64,000 nucleotides of DNA. Source: Megasphaera sp. Lineage in GTDB: Bacteria; Bacillota; Negativicutes; Veillonellales; Megasphaeraceae. Where the stretch lies: assembly GCA_022641375.1 (NCBI GenBank), contig JALCDF010000001.1, forward strand, positions 53,125 through 117,124, read 5' to 3'. How positions within the stretch are numbered: position 1 is the first letter of the stretch; each line of letters opens with the position of its first letter. Below the pieces are notes generated by a model, which made no database searches, was not told where the DNA came from, and saw nothing but the letters and a program-made list of their open reading frames with translations. Shown piece by piece: positions 44,665 to 57,953 of this stretch. Made by a program: the position numbers and the translations under genes.

Positions 44665-45474
44665 TTAATACCATCCGAACAACGATTTCTGCGTATCCAA
44701 TGCCTTAATTTTCTCTATATCACTCGCAGATAATTCAAAATCAAAGATATCCATATTTTTTCTCATCCGATCCGGGTGGGATGATTTGGGGATAACGGAA
44801 ATACCTTGTTGAATGAGGAATTGCAATCCTGTTTGCGCAACGCTTTTATTATACCGGGTACCTATAGCCTGTAAAACCGCATTATGGAAAAAATTTTCTT
44901 TCCCGGCCGCAAAGGGACTCCATGCCTGCATATGTGTGCCATGACGCCGCAAGACCTCCTGCAATGCCCCCTGCTGATGAAAGACATGTGCTTCTACCTG
45001 ATTCACTACTGGAATTACACCGCAACTATCGATAAACTCAAGGTATTGACTGGTATTAAAATTGGAAATCCCCAAGGCTTTGACCGTCCCTGCTTGATAT
45101 GCTTCGGTCATCGCCCGATACATATCTAATGAAGCTTCATACGGTTCATGGATCAACAATAAATCGATATACTCCGTCTGCAAGGCTGCCAATGATTTCT
45201 CGATATCCCGTTTGGCTTCCCTATAACTTGCACTCGGCCTGTACAGTTTCGTCGTAATGAATAATTCCTGACGAGGTACCTGGCATCGACGTATGACGTT
45301 GCCGACTTCCCGTTCATTACCATACATCTGCGCTGTATCTAACAAGCGATATCCAGCGTTCACCGCAGCGAGCATAGACTGTTCGCCTGATTCTCCCTGA
45401 AGCATATACGTTCCCAAACCAACCATCGGCATGGAAACTCCTGTATGTAACGTCACATATTGCAAGCGGCTCAC
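44665..45474 (-). CDS. aldo/keto reductase
   Basis: 269 aa; LDTAQMYGNEREVG, IPKSSHPDRMRKNMDIFDFELS. Confidence 0.93.
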   Translation of the reverse strand: MSRLQYVTLHTGVSMPMVGLGTYMLQGESGEQSMLAAVNAGYRLLDTAQMYGNEREVGNVIRRCQVPRQELFITTKLYRPSASYREAKRDIEKSLAALQTEYIDLLLIHEPYEASLDMYRAMTEAYQAGTVKALGISNFNTSQYLEFIDSCGVIPVVNQVEAHVFHQQGALQEVLRRHGTHMQAWSPFAAGKENFFHNAVLQAIGTRYNKSVAQTGLQFLIQQGISVIPKSSHPDRMRKNMDIFDFELSASDIEKIKALDTQKSLFGWY

Positions 45475-45615
45475 TCCCTTATCAAACAGTATTATATGTC
45501 TCCATTATACACCAAGTATGCTCATGGCATCCATCTGACATACCATCATGATTACTCAAAATTCGATAATTCTACAAATGCTCAAACCGTATATCTTCAT
45601 ATAAAATATAAGTAT

Positions 45616-45643
45616 TTTACATGTAAATAAACGGCAGTTACAA
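45616..45643 (+). promoter_or_regulatory. promoter with palindromic -35 region (TTTACATGTAAA)
   Basis: TTTACA-17 nt-TACAAT upstream of CMD-family gene. Confidence 0.5.
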
Positions 45644-45705
45644 TATACATATAGTAAGAAATTAAAAATATTGAGGGCCCTTTCATTTTATGAGGAGGTT
45701 AGCTG

Positions 45706-46143
45706 ATGAATATGCGTAAACGCATGTCCGTATTGTTGGCAGCAGTAATGTTATCCACTAATATAGTACCGATGGGAGCGATCGTAATGGCAGAAAATCA
45801 AAATGCACCGAAAAAAGCAGTAAAAATCGTACAGACAGCCGGACGTGATCAATTAGGAACTTTTGCGCCGGATTTTGCCCATTATAATGACGATATTCTT
45901 TTTGGAGAAGTCTGGTCACGCAACGATAAATTATCCCTGCATGACCGCAGTATCGTGACGATTTCAGGGCTAATCGGTTCCGGTGTCATCGACAGTTCTC
46001 TGAAATATCATATCGCAACGGCTAAAAAAAACGGCGTAACCAAAGATGAAATGGTAGAAATCATCACCCAGCTTGGATTTTATACGGGCTGGCCGAAAGC
46101 CTGGGCCGCATTCAATATGGCCAAAGAAGTCTACGCAGAATAA
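45706..46143 (+). CDS. carboxymuconolactone decarboxylase family protein with signal peptide
   Basis: 145 aa; N-terminal signal sequence; DRSIVTISGLIGSG CMD motif. Confidence 0.85.
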   Translation: MNMRKRMSVLLAAVMLSTNIVPMGAIVMAENQNAPKKAVKIVQTAGRDQLGTFAPDFAHYNDDILFGEVWSRNDKLSLHDRSIVTISGLIGSGVIDSSLKYHIATAKKNGVTKDEMVEIITQLGFYTGWPKAWAAFNMAKEVYAE

Positions 46144-46177
46144 AACCATATTCATTCGTCCCATTTCCGATTAAAAC

Positions 46178-46216
46178 AAAGACTATTGCACAACAGCATC
46201 TGTGCAATAGTCTTTT
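46178..46216. terminator. bidirectional terminator
   Basis: AAAGACTATTGCACA...TGTGCAATAGTCTTT. Confidence 0.88.
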
Positions 46217-46274
46217 TATGATCATGTATCCCTTCGGCAGTACTTCTCCACCTATCGGAAATTTGTTGAAGATT

Positions 46275-46772
46275 TTACAGTAATTTACGCACTGCATCAA
46301 TCCATGCATCAACGTCCTGTTGCGGCGTTTCTATACGACTGCCGCCGGTAGAATCAAAGCGGATTTCTTTGCCGCAGCTATGGCTGGCACTCTTGCTCGC
46401 TTTAATCATATCATTGATGACATGCCCCGGCCAACCGCCGTTTGTCATAAACGGAATCACCGTCTTGCCAGCTAAATCATAATTACTGAAAAATGATGTA
46501 ACAGCCGGCGCCATCGTGTACCACCATGTCGGCGTACCGACAGCGATGATATCGTACTCGGCCGGATTATGGGCCAGTTCCTGGATAGCCGGTTCATAGC
46601 CACGTTGGACTTCGTCCTGTCCCTGACTGACAACATCATTATATTCACCGCGATACGGTGTCACCGTATCGATCCGGGCCATATCGGCACCGGTAGCACG
46701 CTGCAATTGTTCAGCAATTGCTTTTGTGTTACCGTTAGACCAGGAATAATAGGCAATTAACATTTTTTTCAA
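46275..46772 (-). CDS. flavodoxin
   Basis: 165 aa; LIAYYSWSNGNTKAIAE; GTPTWW. Confidence 0.92.
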   Translation of the reverse strand: MKKMLIAYYSWSNGNTKAIAEQLQRATGADMARIDTVTPYRGEYNDVVSQGQDEVQRGYEPAIQELAHNPAEYDIIAVGTPTWWYTMAPAVTSFFSNYDLAGKTVIPFMTNGGWPGHVINDMIKASKSASHSCGKEIRFDSTGGSRIETPQQDVDAWIDAVRKLL

Positions 46773-46783
46773 AAAAAGCCCTC

Positions 46784-47185
46784 CTATTTCAACTTTTCAT
46801 ATTCTACCGCATCTACCGGTTCACACCATTCATTACTGGCACCTTCAGCGGGGACTTCAATAGCTACATGGGCAAACCAACTTGTCGGTGCCGCACCATG
46901 CCAGTGCTTCACTTCCGGCGGAATATTGACGACATCTCCAGGATGGAGTTCACGAGCCGGTTTCCCCCATTCCTGATAATATCCGCGCCCGGATGTGCAT
47001 AAGAGAATCTGGCCTCCCTTATGGTGAATATGCCAATTGTTGCGGCACCCCGGTTCAAAGGTAACATTAGCCGTTACCAGGCGGTCCGTCGTAAGCATTT
47101 TTAAATAACTCTGTCCCACAAAATACTGGGCATATGCTTCATTTTTATCCCCTAATGGGAAAATTCCCGATTTTTCATTAGCCAT
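46784..47185 (-). CDS. cupin domain protein
   Basis: 133 aa; NNWHIHHKGGQILL...PPEVKHWHGA. Confidence 0.92.
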   Translation of the reverse strand: MANEKSGIFPLGDKNEAYAQYFVGQSYLKMLTTDRLVTANVTFEPGCRNNWHIHHKGGQILLCTSGRGYYQEWGKPARELHPGDVVNIPPEVKHWHGAAPTSWFAHVAIEVPAEGASNEWCEPVDAVEYEKLK

Positions 47186-47224
47186 ATCCTGTTTCCTCCC
47201 GATACAAATTACACCATAGTATAA

Positions 47225-47575
47225 TTATTTACCGCCCTGCCGCATTTCATAACGGAGATAATCGAGGCGGTCTAACTTTTTCTGCCTGACATGGATTTCA
47301 TCCAATGCCTGGTTGCGCAAGGCCATCAACATCTTCATCCGCTCGTCCTCCGTATTTTTTCCAGAGAGCAGCAGCCTCATATACTGTTCTACTTCATCAT
47401 TAGAGAAGCCAATATCATGGAGCGTCATGATGATTCCCAGGCGTTCGATATCTTCCTCATCATATTGCCAATGTCCCATGACAGATTTTACGGCACCACA
47501 GAGTCCCCATGATTCGTATTCTTTTAATATATGAATCGGAATTTTATACTTTTCACTTGCTTCGTCAATGGTCAT
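47225..47575 (-). CDS. MerR-family regulator
   Basis: 116 aa; MTIDEASEKYKIPIHILKEYESWGL. Confidence 0.85.
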   Translation of the reverse strand: MTIDEASEKYKIPIHILKEYESWGLCGAVKSVMGHWQYDEEDIERLGIIMTLHDIGFSNDEVEQYMRLLLSGKNTEDERMKMLMALRNQALDEIHVRQKKLDRLDYLRYEMRQGGK

Positions 47576-47642
47576 ATGACACCTCCGGAAAATACCCTCC
47601 TTTGCTGAGAATATTCAATGATAAATACAGTATCTCTCCCAT

Positions 47643-48809
47643 CTATCGATAGGACTGTTCGTAAATTTTTATTACATCCGCTTCACGAAGTTTTGCCGGA
47701 TCGCACATAAACAATCCTCCCATGGTATCTCTGGCATTCTTAGCCATGGCCTGGAATTCATCCGGATGGATTCCATAGTCGCTCATTTTCAAATCATAGA
47801 CCTGGCAGGCCTTTTGCAGATCTGCCAGTGCCGTCAGGAAATCCTCCGGCTTTTGTGCATCTTTCTTCCCCATATCCTTAGCCATCATAATAAACCGGTC
47901 ATCACAGACATGTTGTTCGATGAAATACTTGAAATATGCCAGGGAAATCATGATCAATCCCGCTCCATGGGGAAGTGCATGATGGAAAGCCGACAGCGCA
48001 TGTTCCATGGCATGTTCACTGGTACAGCTGCCTACATCCATGGAATAGCCGCTCATCGTATTGGCAAATGCCATTTTAGTACGAGCTTCCAGATTACTGC
48101 CATCCTTTACCGCCAACGGCAGATACTGGGCAACATTGCGTATGGCTTCCCGTTCTACCATCGCCGCCGCTTCATTGCAGAAGTTGGAAATATAGCCTTC
48201 TACACTATGGAATAACGCATCGAATCCCTGGTATGCCGTAAATTTCGGCGGCACTGTCAGCATTAATTCCGGATCGACAATCGCCAGCCAGGGATATTCC
48301 CCTTTAAAGCCAACTTTTTCCTTTGTATCCGGATTGGAAACAACGCCCCAGGCATCTACTTCACTGCCCGTACCGGCACTGGTCGTAACTTCAATATAGG
48401 GAAGGGAGGACACCGTCAGCGGTCGTTTGCCGCCGCTGCCCATTGCCACATAATCCCAGACCCGGCCCGAAGGCTGAGGAGCTACCGCGGCAATGATTGT
48501 TGCCGCATCGAGGACGGACCCGCCACCAAGGCCGACAATAAAATCACACTGTTCCCGTCGTGCCAATTCAACGCCCTGTTGAATCGTCGCTTCCAAGGGA
48601 TTCGCTTCAATATGATCAAAGACGATACTGGCTGCCCCGGCTGTTTTTAATTCCTGCAGCACCCGTTCCAAATAGCCGTTTACCTTCGCTGATTTGCCAT
48701 TAGAAATGACAACGAGTCCTTTTTTCCCCGGCATGGCTTCGTCGTGCAGGGAATTCAACTGCCCCGAACCAAACATCACTTTCGTGGGAATATTCCAAAT
48801 ATAACTCAT
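47643..48809 (-). CDS. iron-containing alcohol dehydrogenase
   Basis: 388 aa; GLGGGSVLDAATIIA; CTSEHAMEHALSAFHHALPHGAGL. Confidence 0.94.
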   Translation of the reverse strand: MSYIWNIPTKVMFGSGQLNSLHDEAMPGKKGLVVISNGKSAKVNGYLERVLQELKTAGAASIVFDHIEANPLEATIQQGVELARREQCDFIVGLGGGSVLDAATIIAAVAPQPSGRVWDYVAMGSGGKRPLTVSSLPYIEVTTSAGTGSEVDAWGVVSNPDTKEKVGFKGEYPWLAIVDPELMLTVPPKFTAYQGFDALFHSVEGYISNFCNEAAAMVEREAIRNVAQYLPLAVKDGSNLEARTKMAFANTMSGYSMDVGSCTSEHAMEHALSAFHHALPHGAGLIMISLAYFKYFIEQHVCDDRFIMMAKDMGKKDAQKPEDFLTALADLQKACQVYDLKMSDYGIHPDEFQAMAKNARDTMGGLFMCDPAKLREADVIKIYEQSYR

Positions 48810-48863
48810 GCTATCTCTTCCTTCCTGATTATGTTATACCAAACCAATTATCATCCTATTATT

Positions 48864-49580
48864 TTATTTCGATTGGTTGAGATTCAGGCCGCTCAGCCAT
48901 TGTGTGACTTGATTTTTACTATCTTTCACATCATTGGCATGAATGGCGATGCCCTGTGTAACCGTAGCCTGCGGTTCCAATTTTTGAATAGCGTCTACCG
49001 TATTGCCGAACCCGCTGCCGCCGGAGGTACAGAACGGAATAATCGTTTTGCCGGCAAAGTCCTGGCTGTCGAAGAAGCTGTACATGGCCATGGGCATATC
49101 ACCCCACCAGTTCGGGTAGCCTACGAAAATAACATCATAGTCTTTTAAATCCAATGGCTGATTCTGAAGTTCCGGCTTCGTACCATTTTCAACTTCCTGT
49201 TTCCCCTGTTTCACTGCCGCATCATAATCATTCGGATACGGGTTTACCGTTTTGATAGAATACGTATCCGCCTTGGTTTCCTGCGCAATCCATTTGGCTA
49301 CGAGGCCCGTATTGCCGATGGGTTTGCCGTTATCCAGCTGATAGCTGGCCCGGGCTGAAGCATCTACACCATCAGACAACTTTTCATTATCCGCATAAGA
49401 GAAATATACGACCAGGATCTTCGAATCTTTTTTCAAAGACGTTCCCGGCTGTTCCGCCCCGTTTCCTGCAGTTTGCTGTACTGCCTGTGTATTATTCTGA
49501 CCAGCCGTCGTCTGACTGCCACAACCAACGGTAACTGCCAATAATGCTGTCGCCATACATGCTGCTATTATCTTTTTCAT
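48864..49580 (-). CDS. exported flavodoxin lipoprotein
   Basis: 238 aa; LLAVTVGC lipobox; VVYFSYADNEK and GYPNWWGDMP flavodoxin motifs. Confidence 0.88.
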   Translation of the reverse strand: MKKIIAACMATALLAVTVGCGSQTTAGQNNTQAVQQTAGNGAEQPGTSLKKDSKILVVYFSYADNEKLSDGVDASARASYQLDNGKPIGNTGLVAKWIAQETKADTYSIKTVNPYPNDYDAAVKQGKQEVENGTKPELQNQPLDLKDYDVIFVGYPNWWGDMPMAMYSFFDSQDFAGKTIIPFCTSGGSGFGNTVDAIQKLEPQATVTQGIAIHANDVKDSKNQVTQWLSGLNLNQSK

Positions 49581-49615
49581 ATTGTTTACGCCTCCATGTA
49601 AACTATATATTTTAT

Positions 49616-50002
49616 TTATTGTAACTCTTGCATCAACCTGTCCGTTTGATGCAGGAGCGACGTTTCATAGTGGGATATTTGAAAATCCGCTTCCTGTACA
49701 GCATATTGTAAATATGCTATCTTCTTGAGTAAATTATTTTTAGCGGTACAGAGCATATTTTTACGGACTTTTGCCGTATCATCACCAGCTTTGGCCAATA
49801 TCATGTATTGCTGAATATCGTCTAATGTCATACCGCTGGATTTCAGGCTGCGAATCAACGCCATATATTGGATATGATACTCACTATAATTGCGGACTCC
49901 GCCAGCTTTACGCGGCACCGGCGGCATGATTCCAATCCGTTCGTAATATCGCAACGTTTCTTCTGTAATTCCTGTGCGTGCTGCCATTTCCTTGATATAC
50001 AT
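49616..50002 (-). CDS. MerR-family regulator
   Basis: 128 aa; MYIKEMAARTGITEETLRYYERIGIMPP. Confidence 0.95.
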   Translation of the reverse strand: MYIKEMAARTGITEETLRYYERIGIMPPVPRKAGGVRNYSEYHIQYMALIRSLKSSGMTLDDIQQYMILAKAGDDTAKVRKNMLCTAKNNLLKKIAYLQYAVQEADFQISHYETSLLHQTDRLMQELQ

Positions 50003-50125
50003 GTGTATTCTCCTTTCTGCCCTGGTCCTGAATTTTTCTTTCTTAAGACATCTTCATTGTACAAGTTTTATATTAGTATGTCTAATGCCTATACTATTCA
50101 GCAAGATATTCATTATATCTATATC

Positions 50126-51010
50126 TTAATCTTCCGGAGACGTAAAATAGGATTGTGCATATTCAATAAATTTATCTACCGCAGCCGTATGAAATTGATT
50201 CTTCTTCCAGGCCATAAAACAACCATTTTCTAATAACGGCTCCATCAACCGCTGGCATAAATGCGGATTAGCCTGCGGGAAGGAAAATCCAATAGACAGT
50301 CCCACCCCTTGTTCTACAAGGGCTTCTTTATTGTAAAAGGAGAGATTGACTACCGCTGCCTGCCTGATTTTTTTTAACGAAGGACCGGCCCAGTGTTCAA
50401 TCTGATTCCGGACAGATTCCCGTTTAGCCATAATGACCGGATATCCCTCCAAATCTTCCGCACGAATTGTTTTTTTCTGGGCCAGCGGATGATCTTTGCG
50501 CATCAATACGGACCATGTATCAGTATCCGGCATCCGCAAAAAATTATACTTGCTGATATCCACCGGTTCGAGCAGGATTCCAAAATCAAGACTGCCGTTT
50601 TCCATCCGTTCCTTCACATCGTCAGCAATAGCCGTATATATTTCAAACGTCACATCCGGGTATAATCGGCGAAACCCCGCCATGGCGCTTGCCAGGCAAC
50701 TGATATTTTTAGTTTCACCACAACCGATAGAAATCTCACCGGAAATCACTTCTTCCTGATGCTGTAATTCCCGTTCGGTTTTATTTGCCAATTCCACCAA
50801 TTCCTGTGCCCGGCGGCGCAGCAGCAGCCCGTCTGAAGTCAGGATAATGCTGTGTTTGCTGCGTCGGAAGAGCTGCACATCCAGTTCTTCTTCAAGCTGC
50901 CCGAGCTGCCGCGACAGTGTAGGCTGTGTTACATGTAATTGTTTGGCAGCCCTCGTAATATTTTCTTCCCGCGCCACAACCAGGAAATACTTCAATACTC
51001 GTAACTCCAT
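50126..51010 (-). CDS. LysR-family regulator
   Basis: Start at MELRVLKYFLVVAREENITRAAKQLHVTQPTLSRQLGQLEEEL. Confidence 0.95.
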   Translation of the reverse strand: MELRVLKYFLVVAREENITRAAKQLHVTQPTLSRQLGQLEEELDVQLFRRSKHSIILTSDGLLLRRRAQELVELANKTERELQHQEEVISGEISIGCGETKNISCLASAMAGFRRLYPDVTFEIYTAIADDVKERMENGSLDFGILLEPVDISKYNFLRMPDTDTWSVLMRKDHPLAQKKTIRAEDLEGYPVIMAKRESVRNQIEHWAGPSLKKIRQAAVVNLSFYNKEALVEQGVGLSIGFSFPQANPHLCQRLMEPLLENGCFMAWKKNQFHTAAVDKFIEYAQSYFTSPED

Positions 51011-51186
51011 ATTTATCGCTCCTCTATGAATACACAGGTATAAAAACTCTTTTCTTATCAGCCTAACCATCTATATGCAAAGACCTACCCATATCCTGTA
51101 TATATTTACGTATTACTATACTCATCATATCAAATATACATATCTCTCACAACCTTATTCCATACGCTAAAAAGCATCATAAAAAC

Positions 51187-51270: not shown

Positions 51271-51633
51271 CTATTTATCACAATCTCCGGCATGCTGATG
51301 TTCATGGCAAATAGATCCGGTAGACTGCAGTTCACCCCGCAGATATGCTTCTACAGCTTCTTTGGCCGATCCCGATGCCCCCATGATGACTTCAATATTT
51401 CTTTCGTTGAAGATTTCTACGGCACCGCCTCCCATACCACCGGCAATAATGACTTCCGCCCCTCTGTCTGCTAAGAAATTGGGTAAAAATCCCGGACGAT
51501 GCCCCGGATTCGGAATGTTTTCTTCTGCCGTAATCTGGCCATTTTCAGTATCATACATATTAAAATTTTCACAATGGCCAAAATGAGGCCAAATTTCATT
51601 TCCATTACATGCAACAGCAATTTTCATCTTCAT
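51271..51633 (-). CDS. NifB/NifX-type Fe-Mo cofactor-binding domain protein
   Basis: 120 aa; VACNGNEIWPHFGHCENFNMYD; GAEVIIAGGMGGGAVEIF. Confidence 0.9.
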   Translation of the reverse strand: MKMKIAVACNGNEIWPHFGHCENFNMYDTENGQITAEENIPNPGHRPGFLPNFLADRGAEVIIAGGMGGGAVEIFNERNIEVIMGASGSAKEAVEAYLRGELQSTGSICHEHQHAGDCDK

Positions 51634-51736
51634 ATCTCCTTTGAGTGTTTTATTTGCTCTCGGCCATTATCTCTGCCACTGAATACCTGCGGTCAACCAT
51701 AACGCCCAAGTATAGCACTGTATTGATACGTTCATC

Positions 51737-52600
51737 TTACCGTTTCAGGATATCCATCGTACTTTCATACGCGTCATATAACGCATCCCGTGCCGGACAT
51801 ACTGTTTCCGCCAGGGATTTCCCTGCATTCACAGCAATCGAGGCCGCCGGATCGTACGGCACATAACCGACAACCGGTATCCCTCTATCTATACAAAATT
51901 CTTTTATCTTCGCCGTCTGCTCCGGGCAAACATCAAACTTATTGATACACACCGCCGCTTTCGTCTGAAAACTTTCGGTCGTCTTCAAAATCCTGGCCAA
52001 ATCGCTCAGCCCGGAAAGAGAGGGCTCGGTCACAATCAGCACCAAATCCATTCCGCTGATAGATGCAATGACCGGGCAGCCGATGCCAGGAGAGCCATCG
52101 ACAATGACCAGTTCAGCTTTTTGAGCATATTGGAACAAATTGGCCTTGACTGCACTAACTAATTTCCCTGAATTGCCACGCCCCATTTTTAACGTTGCCG
52201 TAGAAAATATTTTATCTCCTGTATACAGCGTTAACGTTCCGGCAACATCATCACTTAATTCCACTGCCTGCTGCGGGCATATGGCTTCACAAACGCTGCA
52301 GCCTTCACAAGCATATTCATCTATCGTATACATCCCGTTTGTTTTATGAATGGCATCAAACCGGCAATATGCTTCGCAACGGCCGCAGCCAATGCATGTT
52401 TCTGTCTGGATAACCGCTTTCTGTGATCCATAATATGCAGTTTCTTCGGGAACTGCATCCATCTTGGCAATTAAATGCAGATTGGGAGCATCGACATCAC
52501 AATCCGCAAATGCCCGGGCTTGGGAAAACCAGATAAAAGCAGCACTGATTGTTGTCTTCCCGGTCCCGCCTTTACCACTCAACACAAGGAGTTTCTTCAT
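51737..52600 (-). CDS. MinD/Mrp-superfamily ATPase with inserted ferredoxin domain
   Basis: MKKLLVLSGKGGTGKTTISAAF; two CxxCxxxC 4Fe-4S motifs. Confidence 0.9.
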   Translation of the reverse strand: MKKLLVLSGKGGTGKTTISAAFIWFSQARAFADCDVDAPNLHLIAKMDAVPEETAYYGSQKAVIQTETCIGCGRCEAYCRFDAIHKTNGMYTIDEYACEGCSVCEAICPQQAVELSDDVAGTLTLYTGDKIFSTATLKMGRGNSGKLVSAVKANLFQYAQKAELVIVDGSPGIGCPVIASISGMDLVLIVTEPSLSGLSDLARILKTTESFQTKAAVCINKFDVCPEQTAKIKEFCIDRGIPVVGYVPYDPAASIAVNAGKSLAETVCPARDALYDAYESTMDILKR

Positions 52601-53436
52601 CGTGCCGCCTCCTTTTGTATACGGATCAGTAAATCTCGAAATTGGCGGCCCCATTGGGAATCTTCCTCAGAAACAAGCTTACCGGCAGCAATACATCGTG
52701 CCAGTTGTGGCTGATATGGAATGTGCATCAATACAGGAATTCTTTCCGCAGCACAAAACGATTCTAAGGGAAAATACGGTTCATCTTCCTTATTCACTAC
52801 GACAAAACAAGGCTTCTGCAACATTTTCACTAATTCATATACCATTTTGAAATTGTGGAATCCAAAGGCCGTAGGTTCCGCTACAAGGATACAGCAATCG
52901 GCTGCCATGACACTTTCCATGACCGGGCAGCCGCTGCCGGGAGGACAATCGATGATGGTCTGGTTCCCCAGGGAAAGTCCTCGTTGCAGCGCTGCTTTAA
53001 TCACCGGCACCGCTGAAGCTTCACCGGGATCCAGGATTCCTGTAACAACCGTAACATCATGATACTGCCCCTGCTCTACTACTCCTACCGGACGCGGTAC
53101 TTCGGTGATGGCTTTTTCCGTACATACCAGCATGCAGCCGCCGCAGGAATGACATACTTCGGAAAACAGGACCGGATGTTTTTTTATAAATACCAACGCA
53201 TTAAAATGACAAAAATCCACACATTTCCTGCAGCCGCTGCATTTTCCCAAATCAAACCGGGGCACTGGCACTACTGCTTCACTACAGGAACATTCACCGG
53301 GAGATAAAAAAATTCTTCCGTTGGGCTCTTCTACGTCGCAGTCAATATACACCGATTTCCCCATGACTGCTGCCAGATTGACCGAAATAAAAGTCTTACC
53401 TGTTCCCCCCTTGCCACTCAACACAGCTATTTTCAT
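52597..53436 (-). CDS. MinD/Mrp-superfamily ATPase with inserted ferredoxin domain (paralog)
   Basis: MKIAVLSGKGGTGKTFISVNLAAV; CSGCRKCVDFCHF, CHSCGGCMLVC. Confidence 0.9.
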   Translation of the reverse strand: MKIAVLSGKGGTGKTFISVNLAAVMGKSVYIDCDVEEPNGRIFLSPGECSCSEAVVPVPRFDLGKCSGCRKCVDFCHFNALVFIKKHPVLFSEVCHSCGGCMLVCTEKAITEVPRPVGVVEQGQYHDVTVVTGILDPGEASAVPVIKAALQRGLSLGNQTIIDCPPGSGCPVMESVMAADCCILVAEPTAFGFHNFKMVYELVKMLQKPCFVVVNKEDEPYFPLESFCAAERIPVLMHIPYQPQLARCIAAGKLVSEEDSQWGRQFRDLLIRIQKEAAR

Positions 53437-53789
53437 GGCTGGCCATGAAAGCCCGCATGGAAATGCGTCAGTTTTTTCAGCTTTCCCTCTGTCAGACTGC
53501 GAAGATTCTCCCGAACATCGGTACCATCCGCCTGATAGATGGCAATATCCGCCATTTGCAGGACCGTTGCCGCATTTTCACCGCAACGTACAGTAATCAG
53601 TGCGGCCGCACCCCGGTCAACTACCAGTTGAGCCGACTTGGGGCCTGCCCCTCCCTGTGCCTCAGCAGCAGGATTTTTTACGGTTTCAGTCGTCCCGTCT
53701 TCGGTATGACAGAACATAAAATACGGAGCTCTGCCAAAAGAAACGCATACTGCTTTTTTTGTATCGTCTACGGGAATTGCAATAATCAT
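53433..53789 (-). CDS. NifB/NifX-type protein
   Basis: 118 aa; MIIAIPVDDTKKAVCVSFGRAPYFMF. Confidence 0.88.
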   Translation of the reverse strand: MIIAIPVDDTKKAVCVSFGRAPYFMFCHTEDGTTETVKNPAAEAQGGAGPKSAQLVVDRGAAALITVRCGENAATVLQMADIAIYQADGTDVRENLRSLTEGKLKKLTHFHAGFHGQP

Positions 53790-54118: not shown

Positions 54119-54988
54119 ATGCCCCAATCAGAAGAAACAAAAGCCAAACTTGCCTTATTATCTGCCATGCTGATTTTTGGTACTATCGGCATTTTTGTCC
54201 GGTACATCCCGCTTCCGTCCAGCATCATCGCATTAGCCCGGAGCTCTGTCGCTACCATATTCCTGTTCATTTTGCTGGCAGTACGTCACCAGCCGATATG
54301 TTTTTCTGCTATACGGCAAAACATGTGTTGTCTGTTTGCCTCCGGGTTGATGCTGGGGTTGAATTGGATCCTTTTGTTTGAAGCGTACCGTTATACGACA
54401 GTCGCTGTCGCAACCGTCTGCTATTATATGGCCCCCAGCATTGTCATGATTGCCGCACCCTTTATACTACACGAACGGCTGACTCTTCGTAAGGGAATCT
54501 GTGTCATCACCGCTCTGGCCGGCATCATTCTCATTTCCGGCGTCGGGCAAAACAGCGGCACTGGCGACCTGACAGGCATCCTCTGCGGGCTCGGTGCCGC
54601 CTGTTTCTACGCCGGCATCATCCTCCTCAACAAAAAGTTATCGGGTCTCACTGCCTATGACCGTACTATCGTCCAGCTCGGTATCGCCGCTATATTGCTT
54701 ATACCCTATACCCTTTGTACCGAGGACTTCACCGCACTGGCAATAGCCCCCATCGTTTTGATACTGCTGGCAGTAATCGGCATCGTCCATACCGGCATCG
54801 CGTATGTCCTCTACTTTGGGTCTATCCCCTATCTGAAAGCCCAGACTGTCGCTATTTTCAGCTATACCGATCCGATTTTTGCCATTTTATTATCGGCCTT
54901 GTTCCTTCAGGAACCACTCGGGCTGATTAGTATTTGCGGTGCCGTACTCGTGCTGGGATCCACTTTCATCAGTGAAATCAAATCATGA
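54119..54988 (+). CDS. EamA/DMT family transporter
   Basis: 289 aa, 10-TM EamA pattern. Confidence 0.92.
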   Translation: MPQSEETKAKLALLSAMLIFGTIGIFVRYIPLPSSIIALARSSVATIFLFILLAVRHQPICFSAIRQNMCCLFASGLMLGLNWILLFEAYRYTTVAVATVCYYMAPSIVMIAAPFILHERLTLRKGICVITALAGIILISGVGQNSGTGDLTGILCGLGAACFYAGIILLNKKLSGLTAYDRTIVQLGIAAILLIPYTLCTEDFTALAIAPIVLILLAVIGIVHTGIAYVLYFGSIPYLKAQTVAIFSYTDPIFAILLSALFLQEPLGLISICGAVLVLGSTFISEIKS

Positions 54989-56476
54989 TTTCCTCTCGTG
55001 ATTTCTTTGGTCTCCCAGAGTATGCTGTTCCGTTACAGCCCGGACTGTAATCGCCTTGGGATTGGCAGGACAATAATATTGACAAGCACCGCAGCCGATA
55101 CACAAATCGTGATGAACGACAGGCAGGAGTTTGTCTCCTTGTTCTTTCATCGTAATCGCTCCCTGGGGACAATGGCGGGCACAATTGCCGCATTCTACCC
55201 CCTGTTCATTAATGATGCAATGAAACGCATAATAGACGGCTTTGCCGATTACCAGCTTTTGTTTATCCTGAACGGTAAGGGGATGAATCGCACCACTGGG
55301 ACAGGCCTGACTGCAAAAATTACAATTATAGGCACAATAGCCTTTGGAAAAGTCCAAATGAGGCTGGAAAATCCCGTTCATTCCATATTCTTTTATCGCC
55401 GGCATCAGGACACCGCTGGGACACCGGTCGCTGCAAAGCTGACAGGCCGTGCAATGCTGCGTAAACTGATCATAGGATAACGCTCCCGGCGGCATGATAG
55501 TTCCTTTACCTTTGCCCCATGGAAGCACGGGCAGGCTGCCTCTGGTAACAGCCGCCAGTACCGCGCCGGCAGCAAGACCACAGCGGATAAGGGCATCGCG
55601 CCGGCTCAGTAAAGGAACCGCCGGAGTCTTCTCGTTTTCGGTAATCCTGCCAGGAATAGTTTTCCTGATAAATCGTATCGCCCCGTGTGGACAAGCCGCC
55701 ACGCAGTCAAAGCAATCGATACAGCGGCTGTATTCCACCCGATGATTTTTTACATCAATACAGGAAGAACGACATATTTTTTCACAAATCCCACAGGAAA
55801 CACACTGATCTGCAGCAAACACCGGCCCATAAAGATTATACCGGCTCACGGTTCCCAATATAGTCCCTACCGGACAAATCGTCTGACAATACAGGCGGCC
55901 GTATTTCCATGCCAAAAACGTGATAATCAGGAAGGTAATCCCTGACACTACCAGTATTTCAGTTCCTTTGTAGATTATATCTTCGCTTTCCCAAAGAAAG
56001 CCTCCCTGATTCATGCTAAAAGCGGCTATCCCGTTGAAACCATATTGATAGAAGGGTGTAATGATCTGGCCCATCGTACGGCCAAAAATACTGTAAGGAT
56101 CCAATACAATCGGAACCAGTGTCAACCCGGCAAAAAAAGCCAACGCCGTTACTCCCAAAACAACATACCGCAAGACTGCTTTTTCCGGACGGTACGCAAA
56201 GCGATACCGTTTTTTCTTGCGCCACCGGCTCAGCCATAGGATGATATCCTGCCAAATACCTAGCGGACAAATGACCGAACAATAGATACGTCCAAAGAAA
56301 AATGTCAATATCAGTATTCCCAGGATAACGAGTCCATGAGCAGCCAATACTGCCGGCAAAAACTGTAACTGCGGTACGAATGCCCGGATTATCCCCAGAA
56401 ATGCCAGCATCACCAACATAAAAAATATCCCTGCTAAGATAATACGACCCCGTTGCAATGCTTTTCCATTCATCAT
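54983..56476 (-). CDS. NapH-like polytopic 4Fe-4S membrane protein fused to NapG-like ferredoxin module
   Basis: 497 aa; GRIYCSVICPLG and GRLYCQTICPVG NapH motifs, multiple CxxCxxxCP clusters, internal SRRDALIRCGLAAGAVLAA. Confidence 0.88.
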   Translation of the reverse strand: MMNGKALQRGRIILAGIFFMLVMLAFLGIIRAFVPQLQFLPAVLAAHGLVILGILILTFFFGRIYCSVICPLGIWQDIILWLSRWRKKKRYRFAYRPEKAVLRYVVLGVTALAFFAGLTLVPIVLDPYSIFGRTMGQIITPFYQYGFNGIAAFSMNQGGFLWESEDIIYKGTEILVVSGITFLIITFLAWKYGRLYCQTICPVGTILGTVSRYNLYGPVFAADQCVSCGICEKICRSSCIDVKNHRVEYSRCIDCFDCVAACPHGAIRFIRKTIPGRITENEKTPAVPLLSRRDALIRCGLAAGAVLAAVTRGSLPVLPWGKGKGTIMPPGALSYDQFTQHCTACQLCSDRCPSGVLMPAIKEYGMNGIFQPHLDFSKGYCAYNCNFCSQACPSGAIHPLTVQDKQKLVIGKAVYYAFHCIINEQGVECGNCARHCPQGAITMKEQGDKLLPVVHHDLCIGCGACQYYCPANPKAITVRAVTEQHTLGDQRNHERKS

Positions 56477-57843
56477 ATGACGACCTTTCCTGTGTCAGCC
56501 GCTGTTTTCCGGACCATGGCATCGATTTTCCTGATTTCCTGCGGTATGGCAATATGCTGCGGGCAGCGGGACAGACACGTATTGCAGCCTATGCAATGAC
56601 CCGCCCTGCCGGCACGCCTGACTTCGTTTTTATAACGGATGATAAATTCTTTTTTATCTGTATCCGAAGCCGTATCTGTCGCAATGCCCAGCCGTACAGC
56701 CTGAGCATTGTAGACATGGAAGATTCTGGCAATATCGACCCCATAAGGACACGGGTCACAGTACCGGCAATACGTACAATGTACCTGCGCTGTTTCCGTT
56801 CCCTTTCCCATAGACCGGGCTAAGACCTGTTTTTCTCTGTCATCCAAAGGCTGGAAATCGGCCATGGTATGAATATTATCAATAACCTGTTCAATGGAAC
56901 TCATGCCGGATAACATCGTCACAATGCCGGGTAAAGATCCGACATACCGCAATGCCCAGGAGGCTTCACTATCATTTGGACGGGCCGCTTTTAAAATTTT
57001 CGAGGCTGACTCGGGAAGAATTGCCAGATTACCACCCTTGACCGGTTCCATCACAAAAATGGGAACCCCCTTTTCCATCGCTTTACGGTAAAGCGTTCCG
57101 GCCTGCCGGCTTCCTTCAGGCGCTTCACCCTCATCATTCCAATCAGCATAGTTGAGCTGGATCATTACACAATCCCAGGAAAATGTATCCATTAAATAAT
57201 TGAAGAACGGTACATCCCCATGAAAAGAAAATCCCAGGCAGCGGATACGCCCCGCGGCCTTTTCACTGCGTAAATAATCCAGGATGCCATCCTGGATATA
57301 CAGTTGTTCAAACTGTTCCCTGGTGGTCAGCGAGTGCAATAAATAATTATCGAAATATTCGACCTGGCACGCATCAAGCTGTCCCTGAAATATTTTCTTG
57401 GCCTGCTCCAGCCCGGTCAAAATCGGTGTCGGCATTTTATCACACAGATAGAAACTATCACGAGGATATTTTTTTAATATCTTGCCCATAAAGGCTTCTG
57501 ATTTTCCTTCATGGTAGAAATACGCTGTATCATAATAATTCACGCCGTGCCGATATGCATAATCGATCATTTTTCCGGCCAGCTCCTCATCGATTTCTTT
57601 ACCGCTTGCCGTCATTCTTGTCGGGAAGCGCATGCCGCCGAATCCCAACAGCGATAACTGCTGCCCATTAGACGGATACAACCTCGTCACGACAGTGTTC
57701 TCCTCACTGTTTTCTTGTTTCTCCACATCCCGATCCAGGAAATCAATGATTTTTGGGCGGTTCCATACGCCGATGCCCGCAACGGTTGCAATAGAGGCTC
57801 CCAGTATCCCTAACGCCTGACGGCGATTTATTTTTTTGCCCAT
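56473..57843 (-). CDS. Tat-signal aldo/keto reductase with C-terminal 4Fe-4S domain
   Basis: 456 aa; NRRQALGILGASIATVAGIG; AKR D-Y-K-H pattern; CTYCRYCDPCPYGV, CIGCNTCLSRCPQ. Confidence 0.9.
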   Translation of the reverse strand: MGKKINRRQALGILGASIATVAGIGVWNRPKIIDFLDRDVEKQENSEENTVVTRLYPSNGQQLSLLGFGGMRFPTRMTASGKEIDEELAGKMIDYAYRHGVNYYDTAYFYHEGKSEAFMGKILKKYPRDSFYLCDKMPTPILTGLEQAKKIFQGQLDACQVEYFDNYLLHSLTTREQFEQLYIQDGILDYLRSEKAAGRIRCLGFSFHGDVPFFNYLMDTFSWDCVMIQLNYADWNDEGEAPEGSRQAGTLYRKAMEKGVPIFVMEPVKGGNLAILPESASKILKAARPNDSEASWALRYVGSLPGIVTMLSGMSSIEQVIDNIHTMADFQPLDDREKQVLARSMGKGTETAQVHCTYCRYCDPCPYGVDIARIFHVYNAQAVRLGIATDTASDTDKKEFIIRYKNEVRRAGRAGHCIGCNTCLSRCPQHIAIPQEIRKIDAMVRKTAADTGKVVI

Positions 57844-57918
57844 GATTTTTCTCCCATAAAAATATATACTTCGATAGCATTCTTAATATACACCATGAAC
57901 CCCACTTTAAGTCAATGA

Positions 57919-57953
57919 AAAAACGGATTTTGCCTGATAGCAAAATCCGTTTT
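57919..57953 (-). terminator. terminator of hydrogenase gene
   Basis: AAAACGGATTTTG...CAAAATCCGTTTT. Confidence 0.88.

Follow-up and report, generated by a model that had tools for sequence, protein, structure and literature searches.

A predicted periplasmic aldo/keto reductase with iron-sulfur clusters, encoded together with a dual Sec/Tat-type polyferredoxin in Megasphaera

Aldo/keto reductases (AKRs) are textbook soluble enzymes that use NAD(P)H, and the locus described here raises the question of how a member of this family that begins with a twin-arginine signal and carries iron-sulfur (Fe-S) clusters would obtain its electrons. It lies in a stretch of 64,000 nucleotides from Megasphaera sp. 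(assembly GCA_022641375.1, contig JALCDF010000001.1, positions 53,125 to 117,124), called the window below, whose own numbering is used for all coordinates. The AKR gene (56473..57843, minus strand, 456 aa), identified from its open reading frame, the Pfam Aldo_ket_red match (5.2e-30) and an AlphaFold2 model, is followed by the gene of a fused NapH/NapG-type polyferredoxin (PFD; 54983..56476, minus strand, 497 aa), an open reading frame whose architecture is the same in 13 sequences. The original prediction held that this AKR may act outside the cytoplasm and take electrons from the membrane protein instead of NADPH. The export part is supported by the twin arginines, the presence of TatC and a lipobox-like cysteine in relatives, and the coupling to PFD by gene adjacency; the replacement of NADPH is not, since most aligned positions of the nucleotide pocket are kept. 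The reading put forward, at about an even chance, is that of a two-gene periplasmic redox module, in which a tethered carbonyl oxidoreductase, the AKR, would be wired through PFD to quinol.

The stop codon of the AKR gene and the start codon of the PFD gene share the letters ATGA, and the 4-nt overlap (56473-56476) that had been reported between the AKR and the 497-aa membrane protein was confirmed from the open reading frames and the sequence. Among 381 Negativicutes genomes, the exported-type AKR was found in nine and PFD in 11, including all nine, with the two genes being neighbors in 9/9; an exported AKR without PFD was never found in this set. The chance of such a nine-in-eleven overlap is about 1e-16, as a raw value with no correction for relatedness. 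A tblastn search against plasmid records also found the pair in Parabacteroides distasonis, in the order PFD-AKR-AKR-PFD, and in Bacteroides finegoldii, as PFD-AKR, with 37-40% identity, so that all nine Negativicutes genomes and the two Bacteroidota records keep the adjacency. Because the gene order differs in Bacteroidota and the pairing is constant, this is a stronger argument for linkage than the raw chance. In a sample of 300 Bacillota genomes, PFD was found in Negativicutes only, and a single-protein scan of genome contigs gave two loci only. Negativicutes and Bacteroidota are both diderm, with an outer membrane, which fits a periplasmic role.

Incomplete versions of the pair were also seen, with the AKR frame broken in G705 (L076 8744-10133), the PFD frame broken in G008 (L002 7371-8873), and PFD beside an AKR with an internal deletion in G717 (L077 9907-10575); these three copies, those of G705 and G008 being among the nine adjacent pairs, look damaged and come from draft genomes, in which assembly error is possible. 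In G011, PFD stands alone. The third dual-signal polyferredoxin of Parabacteroides distasonis (L088 7062-9599) is located beside a DUF362 protein and not an AKR.

The AKR barrel (aa 60-345; 56809..57666, minus strand) includes the catalytic tetrad D105, Y110, K136, and H170, none of which varies among 11 exported and 21 cytosolic relatives; Pfam Aldo_ket_red covers residues 66-337, and the last 100 residues match several Fer4 dicluster models. These last residues contain two 4Fe-4S motifs, CX2CX2CX2CP (aa 356-366; 56746..56778, minus strand) and CX2CX2CX3CP (aa 417-428; 56560..56595, minus strand), with four cysteines invariant in the alignments of each and all eight invariant across 28 aligned AKR sequences. 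The AlphaFold2 model, built with 28 sequences, has a mean predicted local distance difference test score (pLDDT) of 85.4, and its (alpha/beta)8 barrel matches solved AKRs, the closest being AKR11C1 of Bacillus halodurans (1ynp_B, E 1.1e-14, TM-score by target 0.77). The twin-arginine start, the tetrad and the two C-terminal motifs described in the original prediction are thus all present in the sequence.

Similar AKRs with Fe-S motifs, presumably the proteins of COG1453/cd19096, are common in the cytosol of Bacillota, where 261/399 genomes have a match at E <= 1e-15, a tally that may include other AKRs. They share with the window protein the barrel, the tetrad, an S-F-H motif, the nucleotide-pocket residues and the two C-terminal 4Fe-4S motifs; the exported AKRs differ in having a twin-arginine translocation (Tat) signal and, in every case seen, a PFD neighbor. 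They fall into a single clade, separate from the cytosolic ones (support 100/100), and the same result was obtained without the signal and the gap-rich columns. Marks of this clade include W235 (11/11 versus 0/21 in cytosolic relatives), an extra loop after W235, an HGD motif and a longer linker between the clusters.

The predicted Tat signal of the AKR comprises aa 1-27 (57763..57843, minus strand), with the arginine pair at 7-8, conserved in 11/11 orthologues, and no AxA cleavage site seen. An RR-signal-like start was found in 0/21 cytosolic Fe-S AKRs of other Bacillota versus 11/11 members of the exported clade, where the motif reads SRRTFLK in G001, G007, and G461, NRRSFLK in G203, and DRRNFLK in Parabacteroides. 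The Bacteroidota copies have a lipobox-like cysteine after the signal (GLLYGCGG in Parabacteroides), and TatC was found in the genome of the window and in every PFD genome tested. Since the arginine pair occurs in every orthologue, export of the AKR across the membrane is predicted despite the weak motif of the window copy, and at the level of the family it is settled as far as sequence allows. The Fe-S AKR of Megasphaera G006 (L056) also has an RR signal; it was rejected as a member of this group, being placed outside the exported clade and having no PFD neighbor in the stretch read, and its signal is treated as a separate acquisition. At this locus (L056 9253-11545), the AKR gene overlaps that of an RR-signal protein of amidohydrolase-like appearance.

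The polyferredoxin is ordered as four predicted transmembrane segments (TMs) with two CX3CP motifs, an eight-cysteine ferredoxin domain, an internal twin-arginine signal leading into TM5, and then four clusters. The two CX3CP motifs and the further ferredoxin clusters that had been noticed in the membrane protein were found again, the motifs being CSVICP at aa 66-71 (56264..56281, minus strand; C66, C70, and P71 invariant in 13 sequences) and CQTICP at aa 197-202 (55871..55888, minus strand; C197, C201, and P202 invariant in 13). The ferredoxin domain, predicted to be cytoplasmic, spans aa 225-263 (55688..55804, minus strand), with eight cysteines invariant in 13, and the predicted periplasmic NapG-like domain, with conserved cysteines for four 4Fe-4S clusters, spans aa 342-470 (55067..55453, minus strand). 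Between them lie the internal signal and TM5 (aa 290-312; 55541..55609, minus strand), a feature absent from the original prediction: the sequence LLSRRDALIRCGLAAGAVLAAV has the pattern SRR-x-x-L followed by a hydrophobic segment, with R292 and R293 invariant in 13/13. Of the 13 cysteines before this arginine pair, eight are ferredoxin-type, four belong to the two CX3CP motifs and one is other; after it, 12/13 relatives have 16 cysteines, and the window protein has 17, one of them inside TM5. By Pfam, PFD matches generic ferredoxin models and Fer4_5 only, and its scores fall below the curated NCBIfam cut-offs for NapG (74.8 of 269 bits), NapH (46.9 of 234), and napH/mauN (53.2 of 213). Its AlphaFold2 model had a pLDDT of 46 and was not used.

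This architecture corresponds to the MLMS-1 polyferredoxin, a NapH-NapG fusion for which Tat dependence was demonstrated by reporter fusions (Tooke et al. 2017, PMC5449189). According to that article, proteins of this type have the arginine pair directly before TM5 and four extracytoplasmic plus three cytoplasmic 4Fe-4S clusters, and require a TM5 that is less hydrophobic than TM1 and is followed by positive charge (PMC5449189). The window PFD shares the fusion, the arginine pair before TM5, four predicted outer clusters and the TM5 features, with hydrophobicity sums of -5.0 for TM1 and +5.6 for TM5 (on a simple biological hydrophobicity scale) and R and K after TM5. From its sequence features, it is assigned to the dual Sec/Tat polyferredoxin type of Tooke et al., with the difference that in the available portion of that text no catalytic partner is described and the string 'aldo' does not appear (PMC5449189), whereas the window PFD has an exported AKR as its neighbor. 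Because both proteins have twin-arginine signals, the AKR and the four C-terminal clusters of PFD are both predicted to lie outside the membrane.

As to whether the AKR dispenses with NADPH, the adenosine-side nucleotide motif G313-M-S-S-I-E-Q-V-I-D-N323 (56875..56907, minus strand) aligns with those of the NADP(H)-binding Kv-beta-2 and AKR11C1, and its G313 and N323 are invariant in 32 sequences. At the aligned pocket positions (the tetrad, S206, Q229, and G313-M-S-x-x-E-Q-x-x-D/E-N323), the exported and the cytosolic proteins agree, either in the residue itself or in the range of residues seen. Where canonical AKRs have Ser-Asn/Arg at the nicotinamide, exported and cytosolic Fe-S AKRs alike have Ser-Phe, and Q319 is replaced by His in the Bacteroidota copies as well as in some cytosolic ones. 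Checking the NADPH-contact residues therefore revealed that most aligned positions are retained in the exported AKR, with no erosion accompanying export; because the pocket positions equal those of the cytosolic relatives, no relaxation of the nucleotide site has come with export, and the suggestion that PFD electrons are used instead of NADPH is not supported. Tat export of an NADP-containing enzyme also has a precedent in the glucose-fructose oxidoreductase (GFOR) of Zymomonas, as stated in the title of Halbig et al. 1999 (cited in PMC7317946). The sequence leans towards retention of NADP use.

In the mechanism proposed, the AKR would fold in the cytoplasm and be loaded there with both 4Fe-4S clusters and, probably, with an NADP(H) that it holds tightly; it would then be exported by Tat and tethered on the outer face of the inner membrane. 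For PFD, Sec would first insert TM1-4, with their Fe-S face on the cytoplasmic side, and Tat, acting on the internal signal, would follow and bring the four clusters into the periplasm. PFD would most likely draw electrons from quinol (or a cytoplasmic ferredoxin) and hand them to the AKR clusters for the reduction of a periplasmic carbonyl or a sugar lactone or ketone, and an exported flavodoxin may serve as the switch from one to two electrons. The steps that come from the sequence are both Tat signals, the gene pairing, the tetrad, the cluster ligands and the pocket residues; localization, electron transfer, its direction, the donor, bound NADP(H) and the substrate are inferred. Confidence in a mechanism wired to the membrane is moderate, and it is low for direction, substrate and cofactor. 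The fuller statement, that of a respiratory AKR working outside the cytoplasm of gut Negativicutes and Bacteroidota with quinol-pool electrons delivered via PFD and the AKR's own clusters, with or without captive NADP(H), is held tentatively, a little short of an even chance.

For the quinol, NapGH, the system that PFD resembles, is a menaquinol oxidizer. The genome of the window, which is 79% complete, has on its contig 43 a row of neighboring polyprenyl diphosphate synthase-, MenA-, and MenG-like genes beside LdhH, the large subunit of a quinone-linked L-lactate dehydrogenase (L083 149-4998). LdhH scores above its cut-off (1004.6 bits), and the MenA and synthase matches are below the curated cut-offs. 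It is a reasonable guess that most Megasphaera bearing the pair obtain menaquinone from scavenged 1,4-dihydroxy-2-naphthoate (DHNA). The [FeFe] hydrogenase gene that had been placed upstream of the AKR gene is real and belongs to group B (TIGR04105, 596 bits versus a cut-off of 450); however, a link to the pair is not supported. Only the window and L002, its nearest relative, have the hydrogenase gene beside the pair, which lacks it in G001, G007, G203, G376, G461 and Bacteroidota, and a scan located a 14-bp hairpin (57920-57953), to which the sequence adds a T-run (57917..57953 with it, minus strand), between the hydrogenase and AKR genes. Because of this non-conserved adjacency and the intervening hairpin, the hydrogenase is rejected as the main link and is not counted in the system.

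Several observations weigh against the respiratory reading. The RR motif of the window AKR is off the consensus (RRQALG); no MenD or MqnA over cut-off was found in any Megasphaera tested, near-complete genomes included, and no UbiA-type prenyltransferase over cut-off in G001, which is rated 100% complete and keeps the pair, so the quinol donor is uncertain. A flavin is normally required to pass electrons singly from Fe-S clusters to NADP+ or back; the AKR-PFD pair encodes no flavin protein, and exported-type flavodoxins occur in 24/30 Negativicutes tested, with or without PFD.

That the window protein is an ordinary cytosolic Fe-S AKR, with an N-terminal extension that merely resembles a Tat signal, is very improbable: the weakness of NRRQALG and the lack of an AxA site fit this view, but the arginine pair separates the whole clade from its cytosolic relatives, several members have the consensus SRRTFLK, and the Bacteroidota copies add the lipobox-like cysteine. 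If export is accepted, electrons could flow in reverse, the AKR, in the manner of L-galactose dehydrogenase, oxidizing a sugar or alcohol in the periplasm and passing electrons through its clusters and PFD to the quinone pool. AKR chemistry is reversible; among solved structures, L-galactose dehydrogenases are closest to the Bacteroides copy (E 1.4e-17) and also come out near the top when the fold of the window AKR is searched, and LdhH is another quinone-linked dehydrogenase of the same genome; however, NapGH is known for the reducing direction, as a quinol oxidizer, and the identity to L-galactose dehydrogenase is about 20%, so that the AKR substrate cannot be read from this likeness. Such an oxidizing role is judged rather unlikely.

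It is also unlikely that, in place of quinol, cytoplasmic reduced ferredoxin, flavodoxin or the group B [FeFe] hydrogenase feeds the cytoplasmic clusters of PFD. The lack of MenD and MqnA matches over cut-off in Megasphaera and the predicted cytoplasmic side of the PFD ferredoxin domain favor such a donor, and since G001 has the pair without a UbiA match over cut-off, cytoplasmic ferredoxin stays a candidate there; on the other hand, the hydrogenase is adjacent in only two cases, the genome of the window has late menaquinone genes, and quinone could be made via scavenged DHNA. Finally, the exported AKR could work on captive NADP(H) alone, by dismutation, its clusters being structural or used for docking and PFD serving other periplasmic acceptors. 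The comparison here is again GFOR, which differs from the AKR in its Gfo/Idh/MocA fold and in having no Fe-S clusters and no membrane partner. The likeness is that GFOR is an NADP-containing oxidoreductase exported by Tat (title of Halbig et al. 1999, cited in PMC7317946). The unchanged pocket positions and this precedent speak for captive NADP(H), as do PFDs with another partner or none (the DUF362 protein of P. distasonis at L088; G011); against it, no exported AKR stood without PFD in the 381 genomes, and the tight pairing in two phyla implies that PFD serves the AKR, which makes this explanation quite doubtful. Transfer of electrons from the membrane through PFD to the AKR is the reading preferred.

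Elsewhere in the window, a flavodoxin with a lipobox, predicted to be exported (48864..49580, minus strand; Flavodoxin_4, 1.1e-27), is a possible FMN (flavin mononucleotide) partner, and G001, G007, and G461 have related exported flavodoxins close to the pair or immediately upstream of it. As a specific partner, this candidate is weakened by the occurrence of such proteins in most of the Negativicutes tested irrespective of PFD. The region 44665-51070 includes an exported CMD protein (45706-46143), cytosolic and lipoprotein flavodoxins, a cupin, an iron alcohol dehydrogenase, an ordinary cytosolic AKR, and MerR and LysR regulators, and the same families cluster near the pair in G001, G007, G203, G376, and G461. 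These neighbors may point to carbonyl or redox-stress chemistry and would supply an exported flavin protein, but this context is taken as a hint only because exported-type flavodoxins are widespread in the class. At 51271-53789, genes lie side by side for two small NifX-like (Nitro_FeMo-Co) proteins and for two ATPases of the MinD/ParA type into which ferredoxin motifs are inserted.

Among known systems, PFD shares with the NapGH of periplasmic nitrate reductase the CX3CP motifs, the membrane segments, the cytoplasmic and periplasmic Fe-S clusters and an exported oxidoreductase as partner; it differs in being one polypeptide, in having an adjacent AKR instead of the molybdenum protein NapA, and in scoring far under the NapG and NapH cut-offs. 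The logic, in which the product of a neighboring gene supplies an exported cofactor enzyme from the membrane, is also that of MsrPQ and RdhA/RdhC (PceA/PceC), each a reductase exported by Tat with a quinol-linked membrane donor, although MsrP contains molybdenum and RdhA a corrinoid, and neither is an AKR. The CX3CP membrane module is common to RdhC and NapH (PMC5928378). A literature search of titles and opening abstracts returned no account of an exported Fe-S AKR or of an AKR-PFD pair; both halves are of known kinds, an Fe-S AKR and a dual Sec/Tat polyferredoxin, and as far as searched the two have not been described together as an exported redox pair.

The AKR-PFD pair is probably a new respiratory-style enzyme. 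If this is true, a conserved, exported, membrane-wired branch of the AKR family would give common gut bacteria a new kind of enzyme at the end (or the beginning) of anaerobic respiration, and the dual Sec/Tat polyferredoxin, which has so far drawn attention for its biogenesis, would gain a catalytic partner. The copies of the pair in Bacteroides and Parabacteroides make knock-out tests of this role practical.

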